In this document: in pieces, positions 1-7,256 of the stretch
Numbering within the stretch: the stretch's first letter is position 1
How the letters are laid out: every line of letters starts with the position of its first letter
From: a bacterium ADurb.Bin374
Lineage (GTDB): Bacteria; Riflebacteria; Ozemobacteria; Ozemobacterales; Ozemobacteraceae
Reading direction: 5' to 3'
Length of the DNA: 11,839 nt
NCBI GenBank assembly: GCA_002068715.1
Contig: MWAR01000110.1
Location: 1 to 11,839 of the forward strand
Notes under the pieces: generated by a model
Told to the model about the DNA's origin: nothing
Databases searched by the model: none
What the model saw: only the letters and a program-made list of their open reading frames with translations
Translations under genes and position numbers: made by a program

Positions 1-173
1 GGGATGGGGTTGAAGGTGTCGCGGCTGAACAGCAGCTTGTAATCGAAGGGGTAGCTGTCGATGAGCGCCTCGATCTCCGGCGGCGTGCGGCGCGACGTGG
101 TGACCCAGCGCTCGCGGCCCTCGGTGGCGGCGAAGACGCGGTCCAGCTCGCGCCGCATCTGTTCGGGCCGCAT
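1..173 (-). CDS. Antisense coding fragment, probable ELM1/DUF1022 family protein, truncated
   Basis: The minus strand is open from the window edge to an ATG at 173-171. In this frame 55 of 57 codons end in G or C, so it looks truly coding; the opposite plus frame gives only Arg/Ser-rich nonsense. The peptide contains WVTTSRRTPPEIEAL and, further on, LLFSRDTFNPIP. A TSRRTPP block followed some 25 residues later by an NP(I/Y/V)P-type block is what I remember of the ELM1/GtrOC1-like family (mitochondrial fission ELM1, DUF1022), which are putative glycosyltransferase-like proteins. That match is from memory and rests on two short blocks. The C-terminus runs off the window. The ATG may not be the true start, because it lies on the junction with the SpoIIE sequence; the fragment could be internal to a longer gene. 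Confidence is good that it is coding, moderate for the family. Confidence 0.5.
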   Translation of the reverse strand, partial: MRPEQMRRELDRVFAATEGRERWVTTSRRTPPEIEALIDSYPFDYKLLFSRDTFNPI

Positions 174-181
174 CGTCGCGA
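165..181. other. Junction between two unrelated coding sequences on opposite strands
   Basis: Left of about 170 the sequence codes well on the minus strand (ELM1-like fragment). Right of it the plus strand codes for the second half of a SpoIIE domain. There is no intergenic spacer. The plus frame of the phosphatase hits an in-frame TAA at 40-42, so its missing N-terminal half cannot lie to the left. This is either a real rearrangement breakpoint or a chimeric contig end; sequence alone cannot decide, though an abrupt switch close to an end favours the artefact. Confidence 0.6.
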
Positions 182-720
182 TGGCCAAGGCGGCGTTCGG
201 AAATCTCGTCAGATCCGGCGTGACCGACCCGGGGGCCCTGCTGGAGCAGATGAACGCCGTTCTGCTCTCAACCACGAGGAAACTCAAGATGATGACCGCC
301 GTCACCGGCCTGCTGAAACCCGACGGAACGATGCTGTTGGCCAATGCCGGCCACTGTTATCCGGCGGCCCTCCGGAAGGGGGCGGGAGCCGTATTCCTGA
401 TGCGCGAAGGAAGTTTTCCGCTGGGCGTGAGACAACGCGGAAAATGGCCCTCGATGAGCATCGCGCTCGAGCCGGGGGATCGCCTTCTGCTGTATACGGA
501 CGGCATTCCCGAGGCCATCGACCGGAACGGACAGCAGCTTGATTATGAACGGTGGCATCGTATCATTAACGAGGAGTCGGCGGAGGAGGACACGATCGGA
601 TTGATCTCGCGCCTGCACCAAAGGCTCCGGGATTTCACGCAGCCGGTGAGGTGGGGCGATGACGTGACGATCGCGGTCGTCACCCGCCTCGAACGGCAGA
701 AGGAGAAAGAAACGGCATGA
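169..720 (+). CDS. SpoIIE/PP2C-type Ser phosphatase domain, 5'-truncated (C-terminal half only)
   Basis: The homologous part begins at about IVAMAKAAF, which corresponds to the helix just after the GD-x-GHG metal motif of SpoIIE/RsbU phosphatases. What follows fits the family: an AGHCYPAAL block (usually AGH-N-P), a GSFPLGV block, the LLLYTDGIPEA motif, and the terminal DDVTIAVV motif. Counting from the ATG at 61, the motif aspartates are about residues 147 and 200-201. The first metal Asp and the GHG motif are absent, so this piece alone should have no phosphatase activity. The open frame reaches back to ATG 61, but residues before about 37 are the antisense reading of the ELM1-like fragment and are not part of the domain; the first ATG inside the homologous part is at 181. 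It overlaps the next gene by 4 bases (ATGA). These phosphatases usually act on anti-sigma antagonists and often carry N-terminal sensors. Partial or broken gene. Confidence 0.75.
   Translation, partial: RIVAMAKAAFGNLVRSGVTDPGALLEQMNAVLLSTTRKLKMMTAVTGLLKPDGTMLLANAGHCYPAALRKGAGAVFLMREGSFPLGVRQRGKWPSMSIALEPGDRLLLYTDGIPEAIDRNGQQLDYERWHRIINEESAEEDTIGLISRLHQRLRDFTQPVRWGDDVTIAVVTRLERQKEKETA
700..705 (+). promoter_or_regulatory. Shine-Dalgarno site for the pRiA4b ORF-3-like gene
   Basis: AAGGAG lies inside the end of the phosphatase gene, 11 bases before the ATG at 717. It supports that start over others and fits translational coupling through the ATGA overlap. Confidence 0.7.
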
Positions 721-1289
721 TCGGCAGCGAATCGGGTGGAAACACCGTATTCCGGCTCAGACTCGAGATAACCGGCCTCTCCCCGGCGGTATGGCGGGTT
801 ATTGATATACCAAATAATATAATATTGACTGACTTGCACAAGATCCTCCAGACCGCCATGGGGTGGCGAAACGAGTATCCGGCATGCTTTGCGGCGCCGG
901 CCGGGATCCATCCAATCGGCGAATGGCCCGGGGCGTCAGGCGAGCCGGCTCCCAGAACTCTCGCCGAACTCCTCGAGAACCCGAGGCGCGAGTTCTTCTA
1001 CGACTACGAGCCGGATGAACCCTGGCGCGTGGTGTGCCGCCTCGAGTCGGAGCGGCCTCGGGGGGGCGGCGACGAGCTGATTCCGTGCTGCGTCGACGGG
1101 GCCCGGTCTGCCCCGCCGGACGGTGTCGGCGGACGGGAAGGGTATGCCGATTTCCTGCGCATGCTCGACGACCCCGATGTCGACGAGGACGAACTCGAAG
1201 ACATGCTCGAGTGGGCCGGCGGGGATTTCGATCCCGCCGCGTTCGATCTCGCCGCGGTGAACCGCCGCCTGAAGAAGTTCGCGGTTTGA
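717..1289 (+). CDS. Plasmid pRiA4b ORF-3-like protein
   Basis: A soluble 190-residue protein with no signal peptide or membrane segment. Family marks of the pRiA4b ORF-3 domain (PF07929) are in order: an N-terminal LRLEITGLSPAVWRVIDIP strand block, TDLHKILQTAMGW, an FFYDYEPDEPWRVVCRLE block (family form near YDYDFGDDW), a CCVDGARSAPPDGVGG block followed by GYADFLRML, and a C-terminal acidic stretch leading to FDPAAFDLAAVNRRL. The family is common and its molecular function is unknown to me; homologues occur on plasmids and IS-associated loci as well as in chromosomes. Two consensus points are changed: the His-rich segment after MGW is replaced by a Cys/Pro-containing one, and the D-G-D of the YDYD block reads E-P-D. 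The start at 717 has AAGGAG at 700 and overlaps the phosphatase stop. An AT-rich island (799-830) with three ATA codons sits inside it. The next gene follows after 16 bases, so it is within the cyclase operon. Confidence 0.85.
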   Translation: MIGSESGGNTVFRLRLEITGLSPAVWRVIDIPNNIILTDLHKILQTAMGWRNEYPACFAAPAGIHPIGEWPGASGEPAPRTLAELLENPRREFFYDYEPDEPWRVVCRLESERPRGGGDELIPCCVDGARSAPPDGVGGREGYADFLRMLDDPDVDEDELEDMLEWAGGDFDPAAFDLAAVNRRLKKFAV

Positions 1290-1305: not shown

Positions 1306-4300
1306 ATGACGATTGTCGGTGTCGCTCGAGGTGCCGGCCGCAGGGTGCTCGCCCCGGCCGTCCCCTCGGCCGCTCCGGTCGCGGCTGCCTGGTTGTTCCT
1401 GCTGATTTTTCCCCTCCTGTTCCTGCTCGTGAGGGTCGATCAATGGCTCGACGGCGAGGAACGTTGGCGCGAACGTGCGGTCAGACGCGAGATGCTGGAT
1501 GTCATGCGCGAGCTGCAGCCCAGGCTCACGCCGGCGAAACGCCTCGAGGAGGGATTGTGCGGGATCGAACGCCTGATCGGGTTTCCAGATCCGGGCAGCG
1601 GCCGGACCCTGGTGGCGGCCGACGATCATCCCGGCCTCGATCCGGCGAGACTGAGCGAACGGTTCGAAACGGAGTGCCGCCGGACGATCGGATGCAAGCC
1701 GGTGTTCCTCCTCGCGGCGGGTGCGGATGGCACCGCCCCCTGCCTTCGGATCGATCCCTCGCTGATGGATGGTGCGCCTCCCCGTGCCGTAACGATGCAA
1801 CCTGTCTGGCTGTCGGTTGCAGGCTGGCTTGAACGCCGGATCTGGCGGCATACGGGGGAAACGGACACACTCAAACGGCGCTGGAGCGGCTCTTCCGCGG
1901 TCAGAGAGATGCAGGTCAGGCGAGCCGGCCTGCTCGAGCGTGTGTTCGGAAACGATCCGTTCGACGGCCTGACCTGGGGAACGGCCCAGCCGTTCGTGCG
2001 CATGCGCCCAGGCGGAGGCCGGTATCTCGCCTACGCGAATTTTCTTCCTTCCGGGCCTAAGCCTGATGCTCCGCTGCTGGGGGGATATCTGGCCGTTTTC
2101 CGAATCGACGACATCCCAAGGCGGTTCCTCCTGGCCCCCCTGCTCTCGCGGCCGGATGGAAGGATCACATCCCGGCTTGCCGTGATCCCGCGGGAAACCA
2201 GCTCGGCCGACGCTCTGCGACTCGAGTGTGCCCCTCCGAAAGAACTCCTGCAGGACTGGTGTCTTGGACAGCGCGACCGGCCGTTCAGTCTGATGCTCGA
2301 ATGGGATCGGGCGACCGTCCGTCACCCGTTCCGGACATGGCAGCCCTGGCTCCTGGCGGGCTTCTATCTGATCGTCTTCGGAACCGGCGCATACGTTTTT
2401 CTCAGGCTCGGGGGGTTCTTCCTGCCATTGCGGCTTCGTGGGCAGATCGCATTCGCCGTTGGTGTCGCGACCGTGCTCCCGCTCATTGCGTGCAGCGGGG
2501 TCATGGTGTCCTACCTCGACTACCGGAAGGATATCGATCGCGACAGACAGGAAAAGATGATCGCGGAGCGCCTCGAGATGCTCGAAAACGGGTTGTTGGG
2601 GTATTTCGAGTCCGTCAAACATCGCTTGTGGCAGATGAAGGAAAGCCTGTCATGCCGGACCGAGGACGGACCTGCTTCGGTGACCCGGTATCTGGAACAC
2701 CTGCGGCGGCGGACTCATGCCCCGGTCGTGTTCATGATCACGCAGAGAGGTGAAGAGTTCTTCGTAGCCGGGCCCGGTATTTCGGAGAAAACGCGGATGA
2801 TGGCGGAACGGCTTGGCGAGGTGGTGCGTGCAATGACGATGCGCATGTTTCTGCTGAGCGGGTGCTTTGGGGAATCCGATCTAGAGCTGCCGCACCGATC
2901 GAAGTTGTGGACGAGACGTCGCCGCGCGATTGCCGCAAACCTCAGCCTCATCGATGTGGGTTCGATGATGTATCTCGATGGGCGTGAAATCGATCCCAGA
3001 TTTTCAGGCATCGGTGACAGCATCGTATTTCAATATATGATCAAATATCCTAAAGAGCGTGGTGGGCGCCTGCACGGATTGCTGTATGCCATGTTCAGGC
3101 GTTCAGACATCCTCGGAATGTATCTTCGGAGCCTTGAACGGCGCAGAGAAGCGTTCTCGGACGTTGGGAACGGGGCATCCGTCGATTTCGCCATGTTCGC
3201 GACATCCGGCATGGACAGACTATCGCTCGATCCAGCGACCGTGTGGCCGCGGGCGGCTGCCGTCGACCGGCGCATTCTCGATCTTGCCCGCCGGACGCTC
3301 TCCGTGCCGGCCGGCTCGACGCAGGAAATACCTGAAGCTGCCGGCGGCGTGTCGCTCGTGCGCGCGTTTCTCGAATTCCCCGTGGTCGCGGTCGGCAGCG
3401 TAAGGCCGGTCCTTCCTTTCCAGCATGTCTGGAATGAACGCCTGCTGATCGCCGGTTGGAGCCTGTATGCGCTTTTCCTCGTCGCTTTTGTCACGTATGT
3501 TCTCACGAGGAATTTCGCGTTACCTCTCGAAAGTGTCGGTGCTGCTGGTCGGGAAGTCGCCGCGGGCCGTTTCGACGTGGCCCTGCGGCTGAAGACCGGC
3601 GACGAGTTCGAACGTCTTGCGGCCGAATTCAATGGAATGACGGCCGGACTTCGCGAGCGTGAGCGTCTGGCAAGGTTCGTTTCCGACGAAGTTCTCACGA
3701 CGGTTCGCGGAAACGATGTCGTGGGACTCCATCCGGGTGGAGAACGGCGCCGCGTCGGTGTTCTGTTCGCGCACATCGCCGATTTCGAACGAATCACGGC
3801 GGGCGCATCGGTCGACGAGATCTTCGCGTTGCTCGATGATATACTTCCTCGTATAGAACGTGCGATTCGCGACAACGGAGGCAGTCTCGACAAGATCATC
3901 GGCGACGGTGTCATGGGAGTGTTCCATCCCGCGGAGATCCCTGCCGCAATCCGGGCCGGCAACGCGGCGCTCGCCATGAAACGGATCTTCGACGAGGCGA
4001 ACCGGGAAAGAGCGGACGACGACATGGTGCCGTTGCGCGTTTCCGTCGGCTTCGTCACGGGAAACGCCATCTGCGGAAAAATCGGTTCGCGCAGCGGACG
4101 TCTGGATTTCACGGTGATCGGTGATACCGTCAATCTCGCGGCGAGACTCGAATCCGAGAGTCGCCGGAGGATCGGCTCGCCGATCCTGACCGATGAGGAA
4201 ACGATCTTCTCCATGGGGATGGCGTTCCGATACGGCCTGCTCGGCACCGTTTTCGTGAAGGGGCGTTCCAAGCCTGTCCAGGTATACGAACTCGTTGCGC

Positions 4301-4317
4301 CGGAGGGGACCGCATGA
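1306..4317 (+). CDS. Membrane receptor class III adenylate/guanylate cyclase 1 (substrate-site half, metal Asp replaced by His)
   Basis: A 1003-residue receptor. Likely membrane spans are at residues 24-42, 348-366, 381-402 and 713-733, giving two extracytoplasmic regions (about 45-345 and 403-710), a HAMP domain (about 734-790) and a class III cyclase domain (about 810-1000). Class III cyclases make cAMP or cGMP at a dimer interface. Substrate-side residues are intact: Lys863 (four before Asp867), Thr936 in DFTVIGDTVNLAARL, Asn943, Arg947 and Lys985 in VKGRSKP. The Lys/Thr pair resembles ATP-specific class IIIb enzymes. The second metal Asp (Asp867) is present, but the first, normally in F-A/S-D-I, is His823 (FAHIADF). 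The spacing 823 to 867 is 44 residues, as in canonical enzymes, so this is a substitution and not a misalignment. A homodimer should therefore bind metal poorly. There is no purine-rich SD; a pyrimidine run CTTCCTCCC precedes the ATG, so the start is uncertain (a GTG 13 codons in is an alternative) and coupling to the upstream gene is likely. It overlaps cyclase 2 by 4 bases. Confidence 0.9.
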   Translation: MTIVGVARGAGRRVLAPAVPSAAPVAAAWLFLLIFPLLFLLVRVDQWLDGEERWRERAVRREMLDVMRELQPRLTPAKRLEEGLCGIERLIGFPDPGSGRTLVAADDHPGLDPARLSERFETECRRTIGCKPVFLLAAGADGTAPCLRIDPSLMDGAPPRAVTMQPVWLSVAGWLERRIWRHTGETDTLKRRWSGSSAVREMQVRRAGLLERVFGNDPFDGLTWGTAQPFVRMRPGGGRYLAYANFLPSGPKPDAPLLGGYLAVFRIDDIPRRFLLAPLLSRPDGRITSRLAVIPRETSSADALRLECAPPKELLQDWCLGQRDRPFSLMLEWDRATVRHPFRTWQPWLLAGFYLIVFGTGAYVFLRLGGFFLPLRLRGQIAFAVGVATVLPLIACSGVMVSYLDYRKDIDRDRQEKMIAERLEMLENGLLGYFESVKHRLWQMKESLSCRTEDGPASVTRYLEHLRRRTHAPVVFMITQRGEEFFVAGPGISEKTRMMAERLGEVVRAMTMRMFLLSGCFGESDLELPHRSKLWTRRRRAIAANLSLIDVGSMMYLDGREIDPRFSGIGDSIVFQYMIKYPKERGGRLHGLLYAMFRRSDILGMYLRSLERRREAFSDVGNGASVDFAMFATSGMDRLSLDPATVWPRAAAVDRRILDLARRTLSVPAGSTQEIPEAAGGVSLVRAFLEFPVVAVGSVRPVLPFQHVWNERLLIAGWSLYALFLVAFVTYVLTRNFALPLESVGAAGREVAAGRFDVALRLKTGDEFERLAAEFNGMTAGLRERERLARFVSDEVLTTVRGNDVVGLHPGGERRRVGVLFAHIADFERITAGASVDEIFALLDDILPRIERAIRDNGGSLDKIIGDGVMGVFHPAEIPAAIRAGNAALAMKRIFDEANRERADDDMVPLRVSVGFVTGNAICGKIGSRSGRLDFTVIGDTVNLAARLESESRRRIGSPILTDEETIFSMGMAFRYGLLGTVFVKGRSKPVQVYELVAPEGTA

Positions 4318-7256
4318 GCCAGCGGCATTTCGGACCTGCTGAAAACCGCCGGGTGTGGGCGGGTGCGATCACCCTCGTCTGGCTGCTGTTCGTGGCCCTG
4401 CCCGCAATCGGCCTGCGAAGCGCCGTCAGACTCTGGCTCGAAGACGAGGAAAAAGGGCTGCGCACGGTCATGAGGCGACAACTGATCGATGAGATGCGGG
4501 AGTTCAAGAACGAGATCGAAATCGGTCCTGCGCTCGAACGTGTGTTTCTGCGCGCGATCGGTGATTCCGGTTTCCGAGAGAATCTTTCACCTGCCTCGGC
4601 CGCGGCCCTGTGCGCCTGTGACGAGGTCGGCTTCAAACAGATCTGTGCCTCGGTCGCCGCCCAGGTGGGCTCGAAGCCGGCGGTTGCCGCCATGCTCATC
4701 CCCTCGAACCGGAAAATTCTGGTCGATGTCGAGCCGTCGTATTTCACCGGGTATCCCAAGAAAGAGGTCGAAAGAACCGTTGCCCAGATCCTCGAACTTC
4801 TCATGCGGCCTCGGACTGGCACGGGCGCGAGTTGGAATATAAATGACGAAGAATATAATATATCAAAATTGCTTTCTCACAAACTGTTCGGGGGGGATTT
4901 CAATTTTGCGGATCTGAAATACGGAGTCAAAATCGATGTCGTGCATTTCGGCGGGACGTCGATCGGATACAAAGCTGTGGGATGGGCTTGCATTGGCCCC
5001 CGCAGTGACGTGTATTCCCCAAAGGACTGCTCCGCGCTGCTGGTGATGCTGTTTCATGGAAACAGCCTCTCGCGTGGGGCTCTGCTCCGGGCGCCGCTCG
5101 AAACATCCCTGAATCCTTCTATCCGAAGAAGGATCGAGGGGGTGGGGCGGTGCGATCTTCCGCGTTTCATCGACAGGCCCCGCTGTCTCGCTCTGCTCCA
5201 GGCACCGCCTATGGAATGGCCTGACGAGGCGCTCTGGCAGGGAAGTCGCACCGGTCCTCGTCCGGGGATACGTCCCGTGCCTGCCGTCGTCGCCGATCCT
5301 TCGGCGTTGTCCCACCCCTGGCGGAAGGCTTTGCCCTGGTTCGATGTCGGGCTGCTGCTCGTTGCCGCCGGAACGAGCCTCGTCTGCCTGAGGCTGGCGT
5401 TGTTCGAATACGCCGTCGGAAGAAGCCTGCGAAGCAGGATCGGCTGGGGATTCGCTTTCGGAGCGATGATCCCGTGCTGCGGGTGCGCCATGATGGCGAT
5501 GGCTTCGGCAAAGGCCGGCGAAGACCGTCTTCCGCAGATCGCTCTAACGCACATGGCCCGGCAACTCGAACGTCTGGATGAAGGGTTGCGATCCGCTCAG
5601 ATCATTCGCGCAAAATCCCTCCAGACGTGGAGTGAACGGATCATCTCCGCCGCGGATCGTGGCGAGGGCGTCGAGCCGGCCATGCAGGAGGTCCTTGCGC
5701 GAAGTCTCACCAGGACCATTCTTGTGTTTCTCGCCAACGGGAAGGACTGGGGGACGACGTCCTATGAAGATCAGACGTCGGTAACCCCCGTACAACGCCT
5801 CATGAAGGGCTTCTCGCAGGATGCGCTCATTCGCCTGGGCTCCTCCGGCGGTGGGGGAGGGAACGAGACGGCGAAGTCCATGCAGGTCACGATCGATCTA
5901 GCTCATGCCATCACATCCGAATATCTCGACGAATCCTATATCAAAAAAATCGTCACCTGTTCCCCGCTCTCCGCCGGAAATCCCTTCGGAAATCTCGGCC
6001 AGTTCATGAGCGTGCAGTTTTCGCCGGTTCCAGGCGCCGAAATGCGTCCGAAGGGGGTGGTCATGACGTACGGCGGTCTGGATACGATCATAGAACAGTA
6101 TTTTCTCCGCCTCCTGCGGAACAGCCGTCCAGAGTTTGCCGAGGGGATCGCTTCGTGGAATGTAAAGTATCTGGTATATACTATCAACTCATATAACCCA
6201 CCGGTCATTTCGGACTTCAATAACGGGTTCGATGACGGACTCTGGAAACAATGGAAGTATCTCGCGGAATCCTGTCTGAGTCAGCGGATGGGGCGAAAGC
6301 ACGGCATGCTGGCGCGACAACGGGATACGCTGGCTGTCACCAGGTATTTCTCGAACGGAAATCTGATCGGCGTCGCCGTCGCAGAAAAAAACGGCAGGGA
6401 TTCTGAGACGGGCTGGGTCGGGGCCGTGATAGCCATTGCCGCCGCCTGGTCGGCCGTCACGGTCGCTGCGGCGTTCTTTCTGACGTTGCCGTTCCCTGTG
6501 TTCCTCGATGCGACGAGGCTGACGACCGGGGGAGAATATGATTGGCGGATCGCTCTCGACCGACCCGACGAGTTCGGCGACCTGGCCGGCGTTTTCAACG
6601 GCATGGCCCGCGGCCTGGCGGAGCGGGCCGGGATGGCGAGATTCGTCTCGGACGGCGTTCTGGCCGCCGTGCGGAAAGCGGATTCCGGGGCTTCGAAGAT
6701 GGCGGCCGGCGGCGAGAGAATCACGGCAGCTGTTCTGTTTTCGGATATCCGCGGCTTCACGACGCTGTCAGAAATCAACGATCCGGAGGACGTCGTCACC
6801 CTGCTGAACGACTACTTCACGCTGATGGAAGAGCCGATAAGGGTTGCGGGGGGCACGATCGAAACATACCTGGGCGACGCGATTCTCGCCGTCTTCCCGC
6901 CGGACCCCGCCGGTGAGGCCCCCGAAGCCCGTGCGGTGAACGCCGCGTTCGGCATGCGCGAGGCGCTCGCCCGGTTCAACGGAATGCGGCGACGTGACGG
7001 CCTGTTCACGATCGAAACGGGTATCGGTGTGGCGTCAGGAACGCTCCTCTGGGGCCGCCTCGGCGGCGAGGACGGACGGCTGCTTCCCACTCTTATCGGC
7101 TCTCCTGCCGACCGTGCCGTCCGATGCGAGGCCGCGACGAAGGGAAGGGGCGGCAGCTGCATCATCGTCGACGAGACAGTCTGGAACAGCCTCGCAGGCC
7201 GCTTTCCCGCCGAACAGCTGTCGGCGGACGGAGAGACCCTCCATCTGCTTTCCTGA
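4314..7256 (+). CDS. Membrane receptor class III cyclase 2 (metal-site half, lacks substrate Lys and Asn)
   Basis: A 980-residue paralogue of the preceding gene with the same order: likely membrane spans at about 15-34, 344-363, 377-397 and 703-725, two extracytoplasmic regions, HAMP (about 726-785) and a cyclase domain (about 795-980). Both metal aspartates are present: Asp811 in FSDIRGFTTLSE and Asp855 in YLGDAILAVF, again 44 apart. On the substrate side, Lys is replaced by Thr851, the transition-state Asn by Asp933 (IGSPADRAVR), while Thr926 and Arg937 remain. The protein ends at ETLHLLS, about ten residues early, so the C-terminal KG-x-x-x-P strand with the phosphate-contacting Lys is missing. 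It should be inactive as a homodimer but complements cyclase 1. The start is well supported: a GAGGGGAC SD precedes ATG 4314, which overlaps the cyclase 1 stop (ATGA). The third span contains a CCGC cysteine cluster (residues 388-391). AT-rich islands lie at 4831-4870 and 6161-6200. It is the last gene of the operon; a terminator follows. Confidence 0.9.
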   Translation: MSQRHFGPAENRRVWAGAITLVWLLFVALPAIGLRSAVRLWLEDEEKGLRTVMRRQLIDEMREFKNEIEIGPALERVFLRAIGDSGFRENLSPASAAALCACDEVGFKQICASVAAQVGSKPAVAAMLIPSNRKILVDVEPSYFTGYPKKEVERTVAQILELLMRPRTGTGASWNINDEEYNISKLLSHKLFGGDFNFADLKYGVKIDVVHFGGTSIGYKAVGWACIGPRSDVYSPKDCSALLVMLFHGNSLSRGALLRAPLETSLNPSIRRRIEGVGRCDLPRFIDRPRCLALLQAPPMEWPDEALWQGSRTGPRPGIRPVPAVVADPSALSHPWRKALPWFDVGLLLVAAGTSLVCLRLALFEYAVGRSLRSRIGWGFAFGAMIPCCGCAMMAMASAKAGEDRLPQIALTHMARQLERLDEGLRSAQIIRAKSLQTWSERIISAADRGEGVEPAMQEVLARSLTRTILVFLANGKDWGTTSYEDQTSVTPVQRLMKGFSQDALIRLGSSGGGGGNETAKSMQVTIDLAHAITSEYLDESYIKKIVTCSPLSAGNPFGNLGQFMSVQFSPVPGAEMRPKGVVMTYGGLDTIIEQYFLRLLRNSRPEFAEGIASWNVKYLVYTINSYNPPVISDFNNGFDDGLWKQWKYLAESCLSQRMGRKHGMLARQRDTLAVTRYFSNGNLIGVAVAEKNGRDSETGWVGAVIAIAAAWSAVTVAAAFFLTLPFPVFLDATRLTTGGEYDWRIALDRPDEFGDLAGVFNGMARGLAERAGMARFVSDGVLAAVRKADSGASKMAAGGERITAAVLFSDIRGFTTLSEINDPEDVVTLLNDYFTLMEEPIRVAGGTIETYLGDAILAVFPPDPAGEAPEARAVNAAFGMREALARFNGMRRRDGLFTIETGIGVASGTLLWGRLGGEDGRLLPTLIGSPADRAVRCEAATKGRGGSCIIVDETVWNSLAGRFPAEQLSADGETLHLLS

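Follow-up and report, generated by a model that had tools for sequence, protein, structure and literature searches.

The stretch analysed here (hereafter the window: 11,839 nucleotides, positions 1 to 11,839 of contig MWAR01000110.1 from bacterium ADurb.Bin374 of the Riflebacteria) carries two adjacent forward-strand genes for large membrane receptors with class III cyclase domains, which we call cyclase 1 and cyclase 2. Both domains match PF00211 above its curated cut-off of 21.9 bits (58.1 bits for cyclase 1 and 35.4 bits for cyclase 2) and have the class III catalytic fold. The original prediction for this locus held that the active sites of the two chains are degenerate in complementary ways and that the proteins form an obligate heterodimer with one complete and one degenerate site. 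The features that bear on it are as follows.

1306..4317 (+), cyclase 1: 1003 amino acids, base-binding (C2-like) chain with a PF00211 domain, residues read from the translation
4314..7256 (+), cyclase 2: 980 amino acids, metal-binding (C1-like) chain with a PF00211 domain, residues read from the translation
4314..4317 (+), ATGA overlap of the two genes, seen in the sequence
4302..4308 (+), GGAGGGG within the end of cyclase 1, likely the ribosome-binding site of cyclase 2 (a function assigned from the sequence)
3502..3657 (+), HAMP domain of cyclase 1, residues 733-784 (PF00672, 31.1 bits, cut-off 25)
3751..4287 (+), class III cyclase domain of cyclase 1, residues 816-994
6528..6617 (+), partial HAMP match of cyclase 2, residues 739-768 (PF00672, 20.5 bits, below the cut-off of 25)
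6705..7178 (+), class III cyclase domain of cyclase 2, about residues 798-955 (PF00211, 35.4 bits; PDB matches)
3772..3774 (+), His823 codon of cyclase 1, in the place of the first metal Asp
3892..3894 (+), Lys863 codon of cyclase 1, adenine recognition
4111-4113, 4132-4134, 4144-4146 (+), Thr936, Asn943 and Arg947 codons of cyclase 1, base and transition-state residues
4258..4260 (+), Lys985 codon of cyclase 1, C-terminal Lys of the base-binding half, a place taken by Lys or Arg across the family
6744..6746 (+), Asp811 codon of cyclase 2, first metal Asp
6864..6866 (+), Thr851 codon of cyclase 2, in the place of the adenine Lys
6876..6878 (+), Asp855 codon of cyclase 2, second metal Asp
7110..7112 (+), Asp933 codon of cyclase 2, in the place of Asn

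The window pair and its close family

All residues named in the original prediction can be read from the translation, i.e., Lys863, Thr936, Asn943, Arg947, Lys985 and His823 instead of the first metal Asp in cyclase 1, and Asp811, Asp855, Thr851 for Lys and Asp933 for Asn in cyclase 2, which stops shortly past the cyclase core, without a C-terminal Lys. The translation additionally gives Asp867 at the second metal place of cyclase 1 as well as Thr926 and Arg937 in cyclase 2. Neither chain holds all catalytic residues, given that cyclase 1 is without the first Asp and cyclase 2 without Lys and Asn. The metal residues lie on cyclase 2 and the base and transition-state residues on cyclase 1, which is the distribution of a heterodimeric C1/C2 enzyme, and Lys863 and Thr936 at the base-recognition places of cyclase 1 are of the adenylyl type. 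The 4-base overlap of the genes was likewise described correctly (ATGA at 4314-4317), and GGAGGGG lies just upstream of the cyclase 2 start.

Database searches returned eight relatives of cyclase 1 at 52-100% identity (the identical one included), a further one at 31% identity from Candidatus Ozemobacter sibiricus, and 11 relatives of cyclase 2 at 49-100% identity (the window's own included); several are named Candidatus Ozemobacteraceae by their sources. In the cyclase 1 family, all nine members carry His where the first metal Asp would be and retain Lys, Thr, Asn and Arg. The cyclase 2 family, counted with the window, retains both metal Asp in 11 of 11 members, has Thr or Ser instead of Lys in 11 of 11, and Asp instead of Asn in the 10 of 10 that reach this place (P0121 is cut before it); the place of Arg937 is Arg in the window and Arg, Lys or Thr across the family.

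Hydropathy gives four membrane helices for cyclase 2 and four plus one marginal segment for cyclase 1, and HAMP scores rise above the Pfam cut-off only in the latter. A structure model of cyclase 1 (mean predicted local distance difference test score, pLDDT, 73.9; predicted template modelling score, pTM, 0.55) shows about four helices and two regions between long helices, followed by the cyclase domain. Compared against Pfam, two of the four sensor regions of the pair had no hit and two had weak hits below the cut-off, and structure searches with the cyclase 1 model as a whole gave lists taken up by cyclase-domain matches, which carry no information on the sensor fold.

Pairs, fusions and lineages in other genomes

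A wider sample was assembled from a contig scan and searches of genomes of the same group, from which 160 regions were fetched; these were picked from the best matches and the sample consequently leans toward relatives of the window's pair. The contig scan found no relative with cyclase 1 alone as query and did find relatives with alignment A4. After merging of identical and contained domains, the regions hold 317 cyclase domains, among which 134 have both metal Asp and are without Asn and/or Arg (metal type), 125 have Asn and Arg and are without the metal pair (base type), 48 keep all catalytic residues, 8 have an unread residue and 2 are degenerate on both sides. The homologue check suggested with the original prediction, namely whether complementary losses co-occur in other adjacent pairs, was run on these regions: they do so in 94 of 103 adjacent same-strand cyclase gene pairs (61 metal-first and 33 base-first), a count that, like that of the 134 domain pairs below, includes contacts between neighbouring pairs. 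The remaining nine comprise three with an upstream intact gene, one metal-metal pair and five with an unread residue. An overlap of exactly 4 bases is found in 31 of the 103. At L001, the two cyclase genes adjoin with the identical 4-base overlap as in the window.

The same two types also occur within single proteins. Among 31 reading frames with two domain hits, 27 run from metal half to base half and one more does so with one unread residue; the other three are split hits of a single domain. A database search with a fused protein gave 131 passing matches, and among the 120 listed, 108 are arranged metal half to base half, eight more are so with one unread residue, and four have one domain only (seven of the 120 are also in the fetched loci). 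The family is therefore far larger than one locus, being spread over multiple genomes, in both gene orders and in fused form.

A tree of 424 domains was built without the six active-site columns because the metal and base classes are defined by those residues. This tree and the set of 134 adjacent domain pairs exclude domains with an unread key residue or fewer than 140 residues, and the outgroup is a non-random sample of loci found by motifs including the adenine Lys plus database hits. All 137 metal-type domains and three intact ones fall on one side of a branch (support 0.964), 113 of the 129 base-type domains form one pure group (0.843) with 16 outside of it, and canonical and outgroup domains are separate from both types (0.995). 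By these lineage labels, 130 of the 134 adjacent domain pairs join the metal lineage with a base lineage; the other four are three intact cyclases beside a pair, of which the one tested carries HEAT repeats, and one metal-metal contact. Residue counts differ accordingly between the lineages: the metal lineage has each metal Asp in 139 of 139 domains, Asn in only 16 of 140 and Arg in 18 of 140, and the base lineages have Lys in 126 of 126, Thr, Asn and Arg each in 129 of 129, and the first Asp in 1 of 123. In the outgroup (n = 108), each metal Asp is present in 107 domains and Asn and Arg in 108. These counts show reciprocal constraint on the two types.

They also bear on an alternative in which His823 serves as a metal ligand in the place of Asp and cyclase 1 is active by itself. 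The His is found in all nine members of the cyclase 1 family, with all other residues present there. However, base-type domains outside this family mostly have Gly, Ala, Ser, Gln, Thr, Glu or Arg there, which is at odds with a required ligand, and metal-lineage domains keep the Asp in all 139 cases read, so that we consider an active cyclase 1 highly improbable.

Distances among metal halves and distances among base halves correlate at 0.761 over 116 pairs from 22 genomes (in multi-gene arrays each domain was used once, closest gap first), compared to 1000 shuffles of partners within genomes, which average 0.195 and reach at most 0.351. The correlation arises mostly because pairs were duplicated as units, and this suggests that the working unit is the pair. 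That two cyclases decayed independently and stand next to each other by chance would account for residues being lost in both chains, but the losses complement each other and are conserved, the trees of the partners agree much more closely than genome effects would explain, and fused proteins exist; such a coincidence is hardly conceivable.

L198, L199, L212 and L221 are tandem arrays of three fused double cyclases or of four to six alternating metal and base receptor cyclases. In the fused protein at L260:709-5238, the base half has lost the second Asp but not the first (DNKTNR), another route to the same loss. At L002:7304-10501, L003:7622-10660 and L004:3-1388, in three genomes, a cyclase with all residues (DDKDNR) lies directly upstream of a pair; the copy tested, that of L002, is a protein with HEAT repeats. 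Two proteins of about 770 amino acids (L152:6572-8884 and L163:5808-8117) have a cyclase domain that is degenerate on both sides (GEKTRH and REKTSR) and are possibly nucleotide-binding pseudoenzymes.

The proposed composite site and its alternatives

We think it very likely that the two chains together make up one receptor adenylyl cyclase and form an obligate heterodimer with a single composite site for adenosine triphosphate (ATP). The residues, their conservation, the pairing, the shared history of partners and the predicted dimer of a fused relative are observations that speak for this reading. Each chain would have around four membrane helices and two extracytoplasmic regions, with a helical or HAMP linker into the cyclase domain, and the chains would pair via their cyclase domains. 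Cyclase 2 would then supply Asp811 and Asp855 for two metals, and cyclase 1 would supply Lys863 and Thr936 for the adenine, Asn943 and Arg947 for the transition state, and Lys985. His823 and Asp867 together with Thr851, Asp933 and Arg937 would make up the second site, which would be non-catalytic and maybe a regulatory pocket; either chain alone would be expected to make no cyclic AMP (cAMP). The Lys and Thr at the base-recognition places of cyclase 1 presumably confer specificity for ATP, and we take this pair to be adenylyl-type, unlike that of soluble guanylyl cyclase. Two differing receptor parts per dimer would fit the integration of two signals.

An AlphaFold2 model of a relative's fused protein predicts a dimer of the halves with a fold that matches human AC9. 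Cyclase 2 could alternatively work as a homodimer with weakened residues, with cyclase 1 being a non-catalytic regulator (a pseudoenzyme). Cyclase 2 indeed retains the two metal Asp, and the window copy also has Thr926 and Arg937; pairs with one intact half are known elsewhere (L265, L314 and L315). However, a cyclase 2 homodimer would be without the adenine Lys, the Asn and the C-terminal Lys, and would have Arg, Lys or Thr at the Arg place depending on the family member; moreover, a regulator need not keep Lys, Thr, Asn and Arg, yet Thr, Asn and Arg are invariant in 129 of 129 base types. We regard this arrangement as quite unlikely. It is very unlikely, too, that the pair is catalytically dead and senses ATP or another nucleotide by binding, since every metal, base and transition-state residue is present in the composite site and preserved across more than 100 pairs as the other site decays.

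Several points weigh against an obligate heterodimer. We infer dimerisation in the cell, activity, the ATP substrate and the use of two signals. AlphaFold2 could dock any two class III domains, having seen many such dimers, and its model, which is of the relative's fused protein and not of the window's pair, indicates compatibility and not proof. The conserved His at position 823 in the cyclase 1 family may have a special role. The pairs share ancestry, so their losses are not independent events. With 40 newly fetched domains added to the tree, the metal side breaks into groups of 89 and 48; new metal-type domains are nearest to metal-type and new base-type domains to base-type ones, except for the pairs of genomes G037 and G039. 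An IQ-TREE analysis of 73 rows groups the two types together on a single side (37 of 37, support 87) but does not separate them into two clades; just 10 metal-type rows survived its gap filter. Given the split of the metal types in the enlarged tree, one or several origins of the two types are both compatible with the trees. Complementary pairing does not depend on the tree, since residue class alone gives the 94 of 103.

Individual loci count against it as well. L265:1268-7218 has a base-type gene (GDKTNR) beside a metal-lineage partner that keeps every catalytic residue, possibly an ancestral or transitional pair. L314:2439-8030 (G037) and L315:3369-8913 (G039) encode neighbouring cyclases of about 920-990 amino acids, one intact (DDKTNR) and one (DGKTNR) that has lost the second Asp alone; both are placed near outgroup domains in the tree and are perhaps a separate, earlier or half-way stage. 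Judging from these one-sided cases, complete mutual loss is usual and not universal. Intact cyclases in short frames at L174:6371-7570 (-) and L168:1892-3004 (-) are nested in the metal lineage of the 424-domain tree and could be retained or regained homodimers, L176 has metal-metal neighbours within a three-gene run, and a fused base half at L324 has Ser instead of Thr. Finally, losses in homologues that stand without a partner gene were named as a refutation of the original prediction. The sampled regions contain no clear case, although no partner was seen for L159 (weak signs of one) and L210 (about 500 bases upstream). Other lone single-type domains, when traced, lie mostly near contig ends or are halves of fused proteins or counting artefacts: L149 and L289 are two halves of a single reading frame; L103 and L143 belong to a single pair that the merging of duplicates had parted; L138 and L193 reach a contig end, L022 stops 313 bases short of one and L137 starts at one; in L275 and L170, on the side where a partner would be expected, another open frame extends past the end of the contig; and L130, refetched as L323, has a base-type neighbour with an unread first metal place.

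Known cyclases, distribution and neighbouring genes

Complementary C1 and C2 sites are well known in animal enzymes. Mammalian transmembrane adenylyl cyclases (tmAC; e.g., human AC9) likewise have one catalytic and one degenerate site with the metal Asp on one half and the base and transition-state residues on the other, and the fused bacterial relatives share their order of metal half before base half. They differ from the window pair, which is encoded by two genes and not in one polypeptide (as its fused relatives are), has around four helices per chain instead of a six-helix bundle before each catalytic half, and has two large extracytoplasmic regions per chain and HAMP in cyclase 1. Soluble guanylyl cyclase alpha/beta is a class III heterodimer of two gene products, too (PMC3591389, as excerpted), yet eukaryotic and soluble. 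The chytrid RGC/NeoR proteins similarly use two different membrane receptor chains that feed one heterodimeric class III core. According to the excerpted PMC8815786, many heterodimeric class III cyclases such as tmAC have a complete site only by pairing, whereas chytrid RGC1 and RGC2 keep all catalytic residues, i.e., pairing is obligate there without active-site complementation. CyaB of Pseudomonas aeruginosa, the best structural hit for the cyclase 1 model and also among the nearest by sequence, and Rv1625c form both sites from identical chains, unlike the window pair. The parts of PMC9552081 considered here describe bacterial class III adenylyl cyclases as homodimerising monomers and place the C1/C2 fusion in an early eukaryote. 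In line with the original statement that no bacterial two-receptor cyclase of this kind was known, we found no description of this paired family in the open-licence literature. The C1/C2 logic is known from animals, and its apparent large-scale bacterial use in split and fused forms would be new.

Separately from animals, this bacterial group may have reached a pseudoheterodimeric membrane adenylyl cyclase, through an old duplication into metal and base receptor lineages that spread as many pairs per genome, in both orders and as metal-then-base fusions, with each pair reading two extracytoplasmic inputs and the dead site free as an allosteric pocket. We consider this scenario an even bet, the enlarged tree having made it slightly less likely. 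The group appears to use complementary heterodimers widely, which makes the route from split to fused forms open to direct experiment, provides natural candidates for two-input cyclases, and offers more than 100 examples in which one of two sites was retained and its counterpart lost. A missing Asp is also, by itself, poor ground for annotating a cyclase simply as dead.

Within the group of L001 (39 genomes), 22 genomes have counted pairs and six more have pairs (G016, G023, G033, G034, G035 and G036, with some first metal places unread in G016, G035 and G036). Only the one-sided pairs were noted in G037 and G039, and the remaining nine genomes had one to three matches read each, all intact. 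Names of pair-bearing genomes extend past Riflebacteria, since the G033 and G034 loci are in records titled Candidatus Cloacimonadota. In these genomes, L316 (G034) carries three successive base-metal pairs (GKKTNR, then DDRLAY), and L317 (G033) has part of this arrangement. Forty genomes from other loci (G033 and G034 included) showed, by eye, few same-strand neighbours among the matches listed, and one case fetched from them, in G052, is non-complementary as far as read. Numbers of matches to the cyclase alignment can be very high, with 86 in G005 (7.1 Mb) and 50 in G002 (5.7 Mb) at E 1e-10 or better. L077:9908-14038, titled Deltaproteobacteria, is a tandem cyclase with AAA_16 that follows complementary logic: the first domain has both Asp with Asn replaced, and the second reads SEKTNR. 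This single chain is similar in type to human soluble adenylyl cyclase (ADCY10) and differs from the window pair by its AAA module and the absence of a receptor part.

Two further genes lie upstream of the window pair.

61..720 (+), SpoIIE-type phosphatase, C-terminal part (PF07228), with a 4-base overlap with the next gene
717..1289 (+), gene with a PRiA4_ORF3 domain (PF07929), 16 bases before cyclase 1

Within window positions 1-190, the truncated SpoIIE-type gene does not continue in frame through the first bases and a minus-strand frame looks protein-like, so that this contig end may be misassembled. Neighbour genes of matching kinds are found at L001, where the phosphatase has 539 amino acids and a HAMP domain. 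Since phosphatase and PRiA4_ORF3 genes closely precede the cyclase pair in this shared order at both loci, they probably form one transcript with it. Lastly, 11 genomes of the group have 5 to 24 matches each to domains that bind cyclic nucleotide monophosphates (cNMP), and possible targets of cAMP therefore exist in these bacteria.
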